A stretch of 37,388 nt of DNA from a virus, in IMG/VR virus record IMGVR_UViG_3300017679_000010, positions 1 to 37,388 of that record. The stretch is one strand, 5' to 3'. Position 1 is the first letter of the stretch, and every line of letters starts with the position of its first letter. The position numbers were made by a program, and so were the translations under genes. The notes beneath the pieces were generated by a model. It was not told the DNA's origin and did not search any database. It saw only the letters and a list, made by a program, of their open reading frames with translations. Below, one piece after another: positions 1 to 33,262 of this stretch.

Positions 1-65
1 ATGCATGACGTCCAGTTAGCGGCGCTAGTTTCCGGGGACCCGGTCCGTGAGCGAACAAGTACTGG

Positions 66-138
66 TGCCCCGGAGAGCATTCGAACCTCCGACCAACGGC
101 TTAGAAGGCCGCTGCTCTGTCCGCTGAGCTACCGGGGC
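66..138 (-). tRNA. tRNA-Arg (anticodon TCT), with an unusual G53xG61 T-stem mismatch
   Basis: A full 73-nt cloverleaf can be folded on the minus strand. It has a perfect 7-bp acceptor stem (GCCCCGG/CCGGGGC) with discriminator A, a D-stem GCTC/GAGC, and an anticodon stem GCGGC/GCCGT closing the loop CTTCTAA. The anticodon is TCT, reading AGA/AGG. The variable loop has 5 nt and the T-loop is TTCGAAT. CCA is not encoded. The T-stem is GGAGG/GCTCT, so the normally invariant G53-C61 pair is replaced by G-G. The gene begins 6 bp after the stop of the last late gene, so it probably rides on the late transcript. Phages often carry tRNA-Arg(UCU) to decode rare AGA/AGG codons. It could also be a decayed or attachment-site copy. 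The phage genes lie on its 5' side, which is not the usual side for integration into a tRNA 3' end. Confidence 0.88.
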
Positions 139-5607: not shown

Positions 5608-8237
5608 TGCGCCTCCGGCAAGAACTCTTCGTCCGTCCACATCGGGGCGTTCTCGAAATCGGTCGGACCGACGTACTCCAGCGTGTAGAGAGCCGACCAG
5701 GTGAAATCACGCCGCTCCATCTTGCTGAGGTCATCGGCACCGGGGGTCTCGAGGTTATCGTGCTCGAGCTCTGGTGGGCAAGAAACGATACGCCAGGCTC
5801 CGTAAGACACGGCCTCGCCGACTTCAATGCCACGTTCCAAGTCGTCAGCCGGAGCTGGGCCGATGACGGCCACCAGATCATCCGGCCACACGTCCGGCCC
5901 CCATTCGCCTTCCATGGCGACCGAGATCCGCATTCGGCCCTCAGCATCGTAAAACCGCCGCGTGTAACGCGCAAGGCCATCCAGCGTGCTCGCCATCGCT
6001 GTATCGCTGGCCGTGGTGCGCCTCAGGCTAGTCCGTACGTGATGTGCGGGGTGCTCAGGGTCCCAGGCTCGAGGGTCCGGGGCAATGAATGCCGCGATGG
6101 CATCAGCGCCATCACCCGTGCGCGTGCTCGAATAGCAAGCGAGGGCATTGAAGGAGCCCCGCTCGATGACGGGCTCCATCTGATCGAAGAGGCGGTACCG
6201 CGACTCTGCCCACCGTTCCTCATCTGTAGCGAGTTCCGGGGGCTCAGTCAGGCCGTCCAGGTGGAAGATGTGATCCAGATCCTCAACCGAGGTGTAGAGC
6301 TTCGAGAACCTACAGACCCACATTCCGTCTTGGCGCATGACGTGGAGGTGGGGCTGTCCCTGGCGGCCGTAGTTCGAGCGCAGAGCCCGGAAGAGGTCCC
6401 CCACGGTCGCATCATCGTTTACGAGCTTCCAGTCATCACCTCCTGTCGCGGAAACCCCATCAACCGTCACAGCATCGAGGTCCGGATCAATGCTCAGCTC
6501 GGATTCAGGGAAACCTGCCCGCTTGAACCCTTCCCGCAGAATCGCGCCGATCGTGCGGCGGCTCAGGGATTCGATGCCGGCCGCGCTCGTGTCATCCAGC
6601 TCGTGCCAGAGATCTTCAATGAGAAGGTCATCACTCACCAAGAGCGATCGGCGAGGGGAGCGCACCATCATCTCATCCTCTTGCACCTCCACCCCGCCCT
6701 CGAGCACTGGGCGTCGCCGGCGAACAGTGCCCTCAAAGACCACCGTCTCATCCACCTCCAGCTTAATGGTGCCGCCCATCGTCAGCAGCCGCTTGTAATC
6801 GGCATTCATCGCCGGAGGTGAAGTGGCCGTATCCAGAGGCTGGAGACTGATCAGGGCCTCGAGCACTGACCCCGCCATGTCACTCGTGGCCTGCCAAGAC
6901 AGCTTGCGGACATGTGGGGATAGATCGGTTTGCTCTGTCTCGGGCGTCACGATCCAGGGCGGCACCTCAAACTGCAGCGCGTAGAGTTCCGGCGTGTAGA
7001 TTCCCGTTTGGCTCGGCCGCAGCCATGTGCGCAGCGAGACCTGGCGGTTCGTCGCCGAGTTCCATGAGATCTCCGTCGTCGCTGGCGCTCCCAACTCCGA
7101 GGTGTATCCCGCGCCCGGAGTCGTCAGAGCCGCACTCTTGCACAAAGTGGCCGGCAGGCCAACGCCCTCCGTTTGGCCGACAATGCCAAATGCAGTGGCT
7201 TTCGGGGCCAGCGGGCCAACGGCATGGCTCATCACCTCGGGAAGCGGCTCAGGGAGCGTTCGGACGCCAGAGGCCACATAGCGCACCTGGGCCAACCCAA
7301 AGAGAATCTGATACTCCGTCCTTCGAACACCGATGAAAACCGCTGCGCCTTCGGTTTTGCGAGTCACCCCGATCGTAGGATCAAAGGGGCAAGCGATCCC
7401 CCAGCGACGACACTCGATGAGGAACGCCGAGCGCACACCGGAATCAGTGTTGCTGGCCGTCGTTTCACCGCCACCACCTGCCTGGCTGAAGACGATGCTC
7501 AGATGGTCAGGCCCCCAGGGCAACACCGTCAGCTGAAAGGGCTGGCCATGGTCGATGCCACCAGCCGCGAACTCAAGCCGCTGCACGTGCGACCATTCGG
7601 TGGCCGAACGACGTGTCCAGAGCCATGCGTACCCGGAGGCATGGAGGCTCAGGAAGAAGCGGCCGCCAAATGCGATGCCCATGTACACATCGGCTCGGTC
7701 GCTCATGGTGCCGAGTGGCTGGATGAGGAGTGAGAAGCCCTCATTCGGTCGCATTGTTCGACCTGTCTTTGCAACCCATGACAGATCGAATTCACTCTCG
7801 GCGTTCAGCCCTGAAAGCCAACTGTCCACGTGAGGGAGCGAAGCAATGTCTCCCAGCGGATCTGGGCGCAGGGTGGCCCACAGGATCGGCGAGGCGCCGA
7901 GGTCGTCACGCACCTGCTCCGCCAAGGCGCCGGCCGCGATCACCAACTGGTTGGGGCGCGCGCCAGATCCGAACCAATCTTCACCCCAATACGGGTCTTC
8001 CATGAAGGTCGACCAGAGCGGGCCTGGCTGCAGCATGATGACGCCCGTGTTGGGCTCAAGCCACAATCCATTGTCGACCGCATTACCTGAGAGGTCCATC
8101 GCGAGCGGCCCGGGCTCGAGCTTTGCAGGGCCGGGAGCAGCTCCCCGCAGAGCCTTCGATCGGCGATGAAATGCAAACGCGTTCCGCCTCATAGACGGCC
8201 TGGCGTAGTTCGCGATTAGGGCGACCCGAGGAGCCAT
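5604..8237 (-). CDS. Tail hub/baseplate-like protein, 877 aa
   Basis: The ATG overlaps the tape measure stop (TGATG). The N-terminal half (about 30-420) is beta-rich and Trp-rich, resembling a carbohydrate-binding or jelly-roll type region. From about residue 450 the protein shows tail-hub style segments: a gp27-like strand pattern around VFEGTVRRRRP, then a helical region with ELSIDPDLDA. Such hubs form the ring that joins the tube to the tip and passes the tape measure protein. The gene follows the tape measure directly, as hub genes normally do in siphoviruses. The hub assignment is from position and pattern, not from a firm domain match. Confidence 0.65.
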   Translation of the reverse strand: MAPRVALIANYARPSMRRNAFAFHRRSKALRGAAPGPAKLEPGPLAMDLSGNAVDNGLWLEPNTGVIMLQPGPLWSTFMEDPYWGEDWFGSGARPNQLVIAAGALAEQVRDDLGASPILWATLRPDPLGDIASLPHVDSWLSGLNAESEFDLSWVAKTGRTMRPNEGFSLLIQPLGTMSDRADVYMGIAFGGRFFLSLHASGYAWLWTRRSATEWSHVQRLEFAAGGIDHGQPFQLTVLPWGPDHLSIVFSQAGGGGETTASNTDSGVRSAFLIECRRWGIACPFDPTIGVTRKTEGAAVFIGVRRTEYQILFGLAQVRYVASGVRTLPEPLPEVMSHAVGPLAPKATAFGIVGQTEGVGLPATLCKSAALTTPGAGYTSELGAPATTEISWNSATNRQVSLRTWLRPSQTGIYTPELYALQFEVPPWIVTPETEQTDLSPHVRKLSWQATSDMAGSVLEALISLQPLDTATSPPAMNADYKRLLTMGGTIKLEVDETVVFEGTVRRRRPVLEGGVEVQEDEMMVRSPRRSLLVSDDLLIEDLWHELDDTSAAGIESLSRRTIGAILREGFKRAGFPESELSIDPDLDAVTVDGVSATGGDDWKLVNDDATVGDLFRALRSNYGRQGQPHLHVMRQDGMWVCRFSKLYTSVEDLDHIFHLDGLTEPPELATDEERWAESRYRLFDQMEPVIERGSFNALACYSSTRTGDGADAIAAFIAPDPRAWDPEHPAHHVRTSLRRTTASDTAMASTLDGLARYTRRFYDAEGRMRISVAMEGEWGPDVWPDDLVAVIGPAPADDLERGIEVGEAVSYGAWRIVSCPPELEHDNLETPGADDLSKMERRDFTWSALYTLEYVGPTDFENAPMWTDEEFLPEAQ

Positions 8238-30939: not shown

Positions 30940-31169
30940 GCGGCCACCTCGCTCACGATCTTGAGGCCCATGATCTGTCGGATGATCTGTCGGTGAGTCT
31001 TGTAGGCGCGGATGGCCCGATCGCACCGATCCCTGCTCCACTCCTTGTCTTCGCGGAGCTCGGAAATGAGCCCGCCCATCTCATATCGCCCTACTTCAGA
31101 GAGCGGTCGCCAGTTGAGAATGGCGCCCACTAGGATGGCGTCTTCATTCTCGGGGTGATTTGTGTTCAT
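30936..31169 (-). CDS. Small early protein, 77 aa, unknown
   Basis: An ATG start in a TGATG overlap with the HTH protein's stop. An acidic N-terminus with NTNHPENEDAILVGAILNW is followed by a basic helix (RDRCDRAIRAYKTHRQIIRQ). No domain is recognised. It stands between two regulatory-type genes and is translationally coupled to both. Confidence 0.7.
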   Translation of the reverse strand: MNTNHPENEDAILVGAILNWRPLSEVGRYEMGGLISELREDKEWSRDRCDRAIRAYKTHRQIIRQIMGLKIVSEVAA

Positions 31170-31441
31170 CAGCTTTGAGGGGCCGCACTTTCAGCGGCTT
31201 CCGAATTGCCCGGTTCGGCCTCAGGTACCATCAGATCAGCGTGCGCTCCAATTGTCTCTGAGAGGGGTGTCACAACGGCCTGGGGGTGTGCCAACCCACC
31301 GGGCCATTTCTTTAGCCATCGCTCGACGGTTCGCCGGTTCACACCCACGGTCGCAGCGATCTTTGTCTTCGGAACTCCAAGGCCGTGCAGATGCCGCACG
31401 TGCGCTCGAAGCCGTTCATTCAACGATTCAATTTCCGTCAT
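31169..31441 (-). CDS. Small HTH protein, first gene of the leftward operon
   Basis: ATG 31441 is used, giving 90 aa; an upstream in-frame ATG at 31513 would read through the operator region. A helix-turn-helix is evident: LGVPKTKIAATVGVNRRTVE, then RWLKKW. The rest is a Pro/Ala/Glu-rich tail. It could be a Cro-like regulator or a TerS-like HTH. It is the first product of the leftward operon, next to the repressor. Confidence 0.65.
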   Translation of the reverse strand: MTEIESLNERLRAHVRHLHGLGVPKTKIAATVGVNRRTVERWLKKWPGGLAHPQAVVTPLSETIGAHADLMVPEAEPGNSEAAESAAPQS

Positions 31442-31464
31442 TTTTACGGTTGTGCCTGGACGAT

Positions 31465-31492
31465 TTGCCAGGTACGGTAGGCACACTACCAT
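31465..31492 (+). promoter_or_regulatory. Probable repressor promoter
   Basis: TTGCCA (31465-31470) is separated by 16 bp from TACCAT (31487-31492). The predicted start near 31499 lies only 9 nt before the repressor ATG at 31508. The operator below overlaps the -10 element, so autorepression is likely. Confidence 0.5.
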
Positions 31493-31500
31493 TTTTGGTA
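31476..31500. promoter_or_regulatory. Repressor operator, left site (TACCA-N4-TGGTA)
   Basis: TACCA at 31487-31491 and TGGTA at 31496-31500 flank a 4-nt spacer. An overlapping GGTAG-N5-CTACC (31476-31490) makes a second dyad. The same TACCA-N4-TGGTA unit occurs at 33238-33251. This is likely the repressor's own operator and may also control leftward transcription. Confidence 0.65.
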
Positions 31501-31507
31501 CACCGAA

Positions 31508-32188
31508 ATGCAAGGGGCCGTCCTAGAATCAGGCGTGAGCGACGCGGAACGCTTCAAAACAGCCCGAAAACGGATGCGATTGACCCAGCAGGAGGTCGCA
31601 GATAACCTCGGCGTTTCGCGCGAAACGGTGGCCGCCTACGAGGCCGGCCGGGTGAAGGTGCCAGCGAAGGCGTTCAGCTCCCTCATGGCGATGGACACAG
31701 GGGTCAACATGCTCGACCGGCCCCGCATCCCAGTCACCTTCGACCCGCAGCCGATGCGCTACGCTGGTGAGGTGCCGGCGGGAGACTGGGGAGATCCACT
31801 AGCGAGCGAGGATTTCATCGACGTGGACCCGGCCCTGTTCCACGCGAAGCGCTACGCCGCCAAGGTAGTGGGGCCGAGCTGCTACCCTGCGCTCCACCCA
31901 GGGGACCTCGTGATCTGGCACCACGATGAATCCCCACCCTACGGCATGCTGGTGCTGGCACAAAGAAAAGAGGACCATGCCTGTACGGTCAAGGTCCTCG
32001 ATTGGGATGCTGAAACGAATCAGCCAGTACTGCGGCCGGTGAACCCGGACCACGAGCCCGCTGGCTCAGATGGCGGATGGGTGGCCATTGCCCGCCTGGT
32101 CGCTGTGATCAGGAAGATCGATGGGCTGGAGATGCGGTGGTTCTTGCCCGAGGGAATCCGCCCAAGACACTTGACCTCGCATAGCTGA
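31508..32188 (+). CDS. CI/LexA-type repressor with S24 protease domain
   Basis: A plus-strand protein of 226 aa starting at ATG 31508; a GTG at 31535 is an alternative. An HTH lies at about 24-50 (RLTQQEVADNLGVSRETVAA). The C-terminal domain has Ala-Gly pairs at 86-87 and 91-92 (RYAGEVPAG) as possible self-cleavage sites. The catalytic Ser124 is in VVGPSCYPAL, and the Lys162 in ACTVKVLDW is 38 residues later, the LexA/CI spacing. It should hold lysogeny and be cut after DNA damage through RecA. Its gene ends at a terminator and is convergent with the PEP-CTERM hydrolase. Confidence 0.92.
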   Translation: MQGAVLESGVSDAERFKTARKRMRLTQQEVADNLGVSRETVAAYEAGRVKVPAKAFSSLMAMDTGVNMLDRPRIPVTFDPQPMRYAGEVPAGDWGDPLASEDFIDVDPALFHAKRYAAKVVGPSCYPALHPGDLVIWHHDESPPYGMLVLAQRKEDHACTVKVLDWDAETNQPVLRPVNPDHEPAGSDGGWVAIARLVAVIRKIDGLEMRWFLPEGIRPRHLTSHS

Positions 32189-32234: not shown

Positions 32235-32263
32235 GGCTCCCCACGGGGAGCCTTCTTCATTTT
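32235..32263 (+). terminator. Rho-independent terminator of the repressor
   Basis: GGCTCCC/GGGAGCC closes a CACG loop (32235-32252) and is followed by a T-rich tract. It lies between the repressor and the convergent SGNH gene and would keep repressor transcription from entering that gene. Confidence 0.75.
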
Positions 32264-33075
32264 CAAGGGTCGAGTCGGCGGCGGCGCTTTAAGGCGAGCG
32301 CAGCCAAGCCAGCCATTGCGACCATAGACGCAGGCTCTGGAACAGCCTGCAGTGACTGCTCCCACTGCGCAGCGATCTTGCCGTAACCAGTGGGATTCGG
32401 GTGGACGAAATCAGCGATGTCTGTGTCCGGATTCAGCGCATTGAACATGTCCACGTAGTAGATCGAGCGCCCAGCAAGCTGGCGCTCAGACACGATCTGC
32501 GGCACCATCACCGAGATGTTGGTGGCGTGAGCAAGGTGGTGGAGGTAGTTCGCTCCAAAGCTGCTGTTGGCCTTCGGGATCGAAGCCATGTGAACCTGCA
32601 CACTCGGGTCCACCGCGAAAATGGCATCAAGCAACTCGTTGTATCGAGCACGCATTCCAGTCGGGTTGTTCTTGTACTCGGCTGAATCGTTTGTGCCCGC
32701 CATGAGGAGTACGACGTCGGGCTGGTACGTCGTCATCCACTGGGTCACGTTGCCTCGATCAGGCAGCGCAGCCTGCCCAAAAGTGAGCGAAGCGACGTTC
32801 CATCCCGGCTGGCCAGCGTGCGGCCGGTCCGCTGCGACTAGCGAAGTCGCCCCCTGGGTGCGAGGCCCTACCGGTGTGAATGTGAAGTTGTCGGCACGCA
32901 GGGCACTGTACAACTGGCCACGGTAACCACCTACCTGCGGCGTTCCTGTTCCTTCGGTGATCGAATCGCCCAGCGGCATGATCCTACCGAGGTCAACAAC
33001 CGTAGCGCCGGAGATGGCGGCGCAAGCAAAAGCCAGAGTGGCCAACGCGGCTCTCATGCGTGCCAGTCTACTCAT
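32263..33075 (-). CDS. Secreted SGNH hydrolase with PEP-CTERM sorting signal
   Basis: ATG 33075 is used, giving 270 aa; ATG 33057 is an alternative and both keep the signal peptide (ATLAFACAAISGA). The SGNH set is complete: GDS 36-38 (Ser38), the Gly block in QPGW (89-92), GTND 127-130, and DFVHPN with Asp222 and His225. The protein ends in VPEPAS, a hydrophobic stretch and RRRRLDP, a typical PEP-CTERM signal for exosortase. The enzyme would be exported and processed at the surface of the lysogen, probably deacylating surface glycans. Divergent from the rightward operon, it is a likely lysogeny cargo gene. Confidence 0.85.
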   Translation of the reverse strand: MSRLARMRAALATLAFACAAISGATVVDLGRIMPLGDSITEGTGTPQVGGYRGQLYSALRADNFTFTPVGPRTQGATSLVAADRPHAGQPGWNVASLTFGQAALPDRGNVTQWMTTYQPDVVLLMAGTNDSAEYKNNPTGMRARYNELLDAIFAVDPSVQVHMASIPKANSSFGANYLHHLAHATNISVMVPQIVSERQLAGRSIYYVDMFNALNPDTDIADFVHPNPTGYGKIAAQWEQSLQAVPEPASMVAMAGLAALALKRRRRLDP

Positions 33076-33221: not shown

Positions 33222-33262
33222 TGGTATTGACTTGGTATACCAATAATGGTACAGTGTTGGTA
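33222..33262. promoter_or_regulatory. Repressor operator cluster, right site
   Basis: TACCA-ATAA-TGGTA at 33238-33251 matches the left operator. TGGTA half-sites also stand at 33222, 33233 and 33258 (spacings 11, 14, 11). TTGGTATACCAA (33232-33243) is a perfect palindrome. The cluster covers the spacer and -10 of the rightward promoter, so bound repressor would block it. Confidence 0.7.
33227..33255 (+). promoter_or_regulatory. Rightward early promoter
   Basis: TTGACT (33227-33232), a 17-bp spacer and TACAGT (33250-33255) give a sigma-70-like promoter. The start near 33262 precedes the 55-aa membrane gene by about 28 nt. Operator sites overlap it. Confidence 0.7.

Follow-up and report, generated by a model that had tools for sequence, protein, structure and literature searches.

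A phage-encoded, CE3-like esterase that ends in a PEP-CTERM tail, located in an exchangeable slot of the immunity region

In the PEP-CTERM/exosortase (EpsH) model, a host exosortase recognises the PEP motif of its substrates; Pfam families are matched by fewer than 10% of PEP-CTERM proteins, and phages go unmentioned in the describing text (Haft et al. 2006, PMC1569441). The substrates share with the protein reported here the PEP motif, a transmembrane helix, and a basic cluster, and their N-terminal signal has a putative counterpart in it, whereas the latter protein is phage-encoded without an exosortase and is a recognisable enzyme. SGNH tail-fibre proteins of Klebsiella prophages, in turn, are confirmed esterases, presumably with capsule as the target of deacetylation, and G7C gp63.1 removes acetyl groups from LPS (PMC13123978). 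These receptor-binding proteins resemble the present one in being SGNH esterases of temperate phages that presumably act on surface polysaccharide; they are, however, virion tail fibres, while the protein described below is a 270-aa, apparently secreted product of the immunity region without a tail domain, and by analogy the same deacetylation chemistry would here be displayed by the cell rather than by the virion. In lambda, the lysogenic genes rexAB are located with the repressor between the early operons. Morons of the rexAB type thus offer a likeness in gene arrangement, namely an extra gene accompanying the repressor in a variable slot between two early operators, but the cargo in our case is an enzyme whose delivery to the surface would depend on the sorting machinery of the host.

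The DNA analysed (the window) is a complete, metagenome-derived IMG/VR virus record (IMGVR_UViG_3300017679_000010; 37,388 bases) from a tailed phage, with recognisable genes for portal, terminase, major head protein, tail fibres, and endolysin. On its minus strand (32263..33075), profile search, alignment, AlphaFold, and Foldseek identified a gene for a 270-aa SGNH/CE3-like, presumably secreted esterase with a PEP-CTERM tail. The mechanical open reading frame extends in frame to 33303; the start was set at the methionine of 33075, and the homologue at locus L002 of the related contig G001 (see below) begins at the equivalent methionine. The catalytic domain (aa 31-242; 32350..32985, minus strand), delimited by Pfam and alignment and 90% identical in L002, includes S38, G91, N129, D222, and H225. 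SGNH superfamily blocks I (GDS), II (G), III (GxND), and V (DxxH) are all present, with G36-D37-S38, G91, G127-x-N129-D130, and D222-x-x-H225 being invariant or at least 90% conserved in a 43-sequence alignment, and the protein matches Pfam Lipase_GDSL_2 (PF13472, 5e-16) as well as PF00657 (1.6e-11). The complete SGNH active site claimed in an initial annotation of this DNA was thereby borne out.

The nearest solved structures by sequence are 2vpt from C. thermocellum (E 2e-21) and 5b5s/5b5l from Talaromyces, all of which are CE3 carbohydrate esterases. The same three lead the Foldseek results (2vpt, 5b5l, and 5b5s; TM to target 0.80-0.85) for an AlphaFold model that was computed with the 43-sequence alignment as input and reached a mean pLDDT of 90 and a pTM of 0.83. 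By sequence and modelled fold, the protein is closest to CE3 acetyl esterases, a likeness that denotes proximity to characterised members and not a formal CAZy family assignment. It shares fold and catalytic residues with these enzymes, but is at most 30% identical to them, is encoded by a phage, and adds a putative signal peptide and a PEP-CTERM tail, its activity being predicted. By analogy, it would act as an acetyl esterase on polysaccharide, and the earlier suggestion of a carbohydrate esterase or deacylase gains support from the fact that the nearest solved relatives are CE3 esterases. Bacterial relatives do not exceed about 40% identity (35-40%), and most of them are secreted enzymes of actinobacteria and cyanobacteria; the plasmids searched contained relatives below 60% only. 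On the viral side, all four PHROG matches span only part of much longer profiles, and viral SGNH-fold matches in Foldseek are mostly domains within larger proteins, many of them annotated as tail proteins. A tail or receptor-binding esterase was considered as a reading of the window protein and rejected on account of its single domain, its signal peptide-like N-terminus, and its location in the immunity region instead of the tail module.

The N-terminus, MSRLARMRAALATLAFACAAISGA, has the n, h, and c regions typical of a Sec signal as judged by eye, with an AlphaFold helix at residues 3-21, and this signal-peptide-like segment (aa 1-24, ...AISGA/TVV; 33004..33075, minus strand) is 80% conserved in L002. 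These predicted features are in keeping with the secretion that had been proposed. At the other end, the protein terminates in VPEPASMVAMAGLAALALKRRRRLDP, a PEP-CTERM sorting signal (aa 244-267; 32275..32346, minus strand) laid out as VPEP, a hydrophobic helix, and KRRRR; the AlphaFold model places a membrane-length helix (249-268) C-terminal to the PEP motif. PF07589 matches aa 244-267 just above its cut-off (21.6 vs 20.7 bits), and the match to NCBIfam TIGR02595 reaches 20.4 bits where 16 are required. The tripartite pattern was absent from all 1006 ORFs of 42 viral loci that had been picked without regard to it and was regained in 4 of 50,000 shuffles of the window tail, a rarity which shows that it is no product of chance, so that the exosortase-type VPEP tail of the initial annotation stands. 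The tail of the L002 homologue, VPEPTSMIALGGLVALALRRRAKC, likewise exceeds the TIGR02595 cut-off; it is 65% identical to that of the window and retains the exact PEP motif and the basic cluster, which argues that an exosortase matters to the phage. Among 80 bacterial relatives, just one (L034, from a deltaproteobacterial symbiont) has a comparable tail, consisting of VPAP, a hydrophobic stretch, and basic residues.

The gene belongs to the phage. The 42.6-kb contig G001, which comes from a different metagenome and is syntenic with most of the window (TerL 86% identical at the amino acid level), carries it in matching position and orientation, and the encoded protein is 87% identical, tail included. 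Third codon positions are only 40% identical, which implies strong purifying selection on the protein; it is about as strong as on the terminase. The repressors beside the gene, for comparison, are 29% identical between the two phages. Host DNA joined to the phage, which the initial annotation had itself raised as an objection, or a mis-assembly would be compatible with the bacterial nature of the PEP-CTERM system and with the metagenomic derivation of the record; yet the gene recurs at the equivalent position of an independent phage contig of separate metagenomic origin, where it is bounded on both sides by repressor, terminator, and early operon, and the third positions are saturated, so that this objection falls away and is hardly credible.

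The phage group is temperate, as follows from an integrase with a tRNA-type att site in G001 and a joined attP in a further relative. In G001, a tyrosine-recombinase gene adjoins a 45-bp terminal repeat that resembles the 3'-terminal half of a tRNA with a CCA end, probably tRNA-Pro(GGG). The same integrase and att sequence recur in G1000 (locus L190), where the att is joined in the middle of the contig, which, read from the sequence, is as expected of a free circular genome. The window has a tRNA-Arg(TCT) at its extreme left end (63-138, minus strand), directly adjoined by phage-like sequence; it was rejected as an att site, as it differs from the G001 att and phage sequence aligns to another relative, G002, up to the tRNA. 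The 45-bp core was absent, at up to 3 mismatches, from 933 sampled genomes (398 Pseudomonadota, 294 Planctomycetota, and 241 Verrucomicrobiota), as was a shorter core, at up to 1 mismatch, from the 398 Pseudomonadota genomes. Neither the window phage nor the related phages examined encode an exosortase, hence this enzyme would have to come from the host.

The placement of the gene inside the immunity region, also claimed initially, proved correct. It is flanked by a phage repressor of the CI/LexA type with HTH and S24 peptidase-like domains (31508..32188, plus strand; profile search) and by an early right promoter-like site recognised in the sequence (TTGACT-17-TACAGT; 33227..33255, plus strand). 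A GC-rich, terminator-like hairpin with a T-rich tail (32235..32252), conserved in L002 and G1000, separates the convergent repressor and SGNH genes and forms the left border of the cargo slot. The leftward early operon opens with an HTH protein gene (31169..31513, minus strand; profile search) that is conserved in G001, G002, and G1000. A left operator candidate, TACCATTTTTGGTA, is situated at 31487..31500, and right operator candidates found by palindrome search, TTGGTATACCAA / TACCAATAATGGTA (33232..33251), overlap the early right promoter; the palindrome TACCANNNNTGGTA occurs just twice in the 37 kb of the window. Further along the leftward early operon, a protein with a PhageMetallopep domain (PF18894; 30427-31041, minus strand) is encoded beside a ParB-like protein, which gave no matches when used as a search query.

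While the order of repressor, hairpin, leftward SGNH gene, and early right promoter is common to the window and G001, the contents of the slot are replaced in other close relatives. G1000 (40.7 kb), whose DNA identity to G001 rises to 97-99% in places, combines a repressor of a different kind with the conserved hairpin (66 bp at 97% identity with G001) and, between this hairpin and the early promoter, a leftward gene for a 77-aa protein in place of the SGNH gene. The latter protein (L192 155-388, minus strand) contains two CxxC pairs, begins with a zinc ribbon, has a membrane helix at its C-terminus, and is a candidate envelope or superinfection-exclusion protein without recognised family. G002 (33.4 kb), which aligns with the window at about 76% DNA identity over most of its length, has three other leftward ORFs without recognised family after its repressor; a HicB-like reading of one slot gene was dropped for lack of Pfam or NCBIfam support. 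Its repressor (L174 14308-15017) is 72% identical to that of the window overall, with a nearly identical C-terminal part and a different DNA-binding N-terminus, a difference that reads as a specificity swap. Searches of G002 and G1000 with the SGNH protein gave no match, and this absence, together with the replaced slot contents and the conserved phage sequence on either side, marks the gene as a moron. Anti-phage defence models matched none of the slot cargo proteins. Palindromes are paired at the slot ends in the window, G001, and G1000, each phage having its own sequence: TGTCATGACA and TGACACNNGTGTCA each occur twice in the 16.8 kb searched of G001, and the 12-bp palindrome TTGACATGTCAA occurs twice in the 40.7 kb of G1000. 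The simplest reading would be that these pairs are operators for three different repressors and that repressor and cargo are exchanged as a cassette.

The gene encodes a well-conserved CE3-like esterase with an exosortase tag, belongs to the phage, occupies an exchangeable slot of the immunity region, and is a variant of lysogenic-conversion cargo, the function and timing of which we infer. With a confidence that stops just short of even, we favour the view that a temperate tailed phage carries it as cargo (a moron) and that its product, a secreted CE3-type O-acetyl esterase displayed via an exosortase, would de-esterify surface polysaccharide and protect against superinfection. The phage would provide signal peptide and PEP-CTERM tag, the protein would be exported by Sec, and the exosortase of a Gram-negative host would cut at the PEP motif, so that the enzyme would end up at the cell surface, either set free or anchored, or within the exopolysaccharide matrix. 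At this site, it would most likely strip O-acetyl (or similar ester) groups from surface polysaccharide. The benefit would be the loss of a receptor used by other phages or a change in the matrix, either of which could make the cell, infected or lysogenic, resistant to superinfection. The role we deem most likely is a remodelling of envelope or exopolysaccharide through de-O-acetylation that would serve lysogenic conversion or superinfection exclusion. It is conceivable, though more doubtful, that where bacteria possess an exosortase, their temperate phages exploit it to display lysogenic-conversion enzymes, here a polysaccharide de-O-acetylase in an exchangeable slot travelling together with the repressor/operator cassette. 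Such a scheme would link phage immunity to the exopolysaccharide and biofilm biology of environmental Gram-negatives, and a phage-borne enzyme substrate with easily measured activity would give a handle on exosortase function. Overall, the finding suggests a virus that remodels the coat of the cell it inhabits.

When the gene is expressed bears directly on this proposal. A leftward promoter candidate in L002 (ATGACA-17-GACAAT at 7877-7905) overlaps the right operator, and because of this overlap of the putative cargo promoter, the expression in the lysogen assumed by the initial annotation is doubtful or at least uncertain; the arrangement would allow activation or repression of the SGNH gene by the repressor. 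The main competing explanation, which we rate as unlikely but not negligible, builds on the same overlap and on TTGACA being present in both directions in the G1000 palindrome: an early-lytic enzyme that destroys receptor or matrix, its promoter silenced by the repressor in the lysogen, would fire early after infection or induction, block re-adsorption of siblings, and free progeny from the matrix. An operator overlapping a divergent promoter can, however, also activate, as for lambda PRM, and cargo sitting with the repressor between two early operons occupies the position of lysogenic genes such as rexAB.

Other explanations concern what the enzyme does and where it ends up. A nutritional auxiliary gene, that is, a surface acetyl(xylan) esterase aiding the host in the use of acetylated polysaccharides, would agree with the CE3 esterases as closest solved relatives, one of them cellulosomal (Clostridium thermocellum), with the occurrence of plant-polysaccharide esterases among CE3 members, and with the actinobacterial and cyanobacterial secreted enzymes among its bacterial relatives; the phage, however, has neither a carbohydrate-binding module nor another glycan-use gene, and the other slot cargo is a small, non-metabolic membrane protein, which makes this role improbable. 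We give even less credence to a tail that is a membrane anchor only, in a host without matching exosortase, whereby the enzyme would face the periplasm from the inner membrane and act on nascent polysaccharide or peptidoglycan. That the host exosortase is assumed and that the PF07589 score barely clears its cut-off speak for such an anchor, but a plain anchor has no need of a PEP motif, and it is exactly PEP and the basic cluster that G001 has kept while the remainder of the tail drifted.

Surface lysogenic conversion as such is well known, whereas display of a phage gene product by the exosortase route was not encountered in the literature searched; likewise, no phage-encoded exosortase substrate was found described in the papers retrieved on PEP-CTERM with phage, prophage, or viral contigs. 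The initial annotation had called such substrates unusual in phage genomes and proposed a search of phage databases for PEP-CTERM tails, and its claim holds in part: annotated phages in INPHARED contain zero homologues of this protein, but PEP-CTERM tails are found at 46 other IMG/VR loci (35 and 11 in two scans that used a narrow handful of query peptides), few of them shown to be near phage genes. The majority are PEPSTWAMM-type tails, and a portal gene was present in only 6 of the 26 records tested, so many of these loci may be host flank. L148 combines a GDSL esterase with a PEP-CTERM tail (7158-8126) in an IMG/VR record with a portal gene, as in the window; it differs in belonging to another GDSL family (PF00657) and in its distance of about 28 kb from the portal gene, and may be host flank. 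Phage-located PEP-CTERM genes are not unique to the window phage. Some look genuinely phage-borne, among them L166 (7551-8141), where a gene for a PEP-CTERM protein without other recognised domain lies after those for a phage helicase and a repressor-like protein on a viral contig of 77 kb, and L138, near HNH and endolysin genes. As to further SGNH-like proteins in this phage group, G001 and G1000 encode a GDSL-type protein of 479 aa near the end that corresponds to the left end of the tail module in the window, where a gene on the minus strand (P0002, 148-1251) was rejected as its relative since BLASTP gives no match. P0002 itself has SGNH-like GDS and DNTHPND motifs with no Pfam match and is 89% identical in G002.
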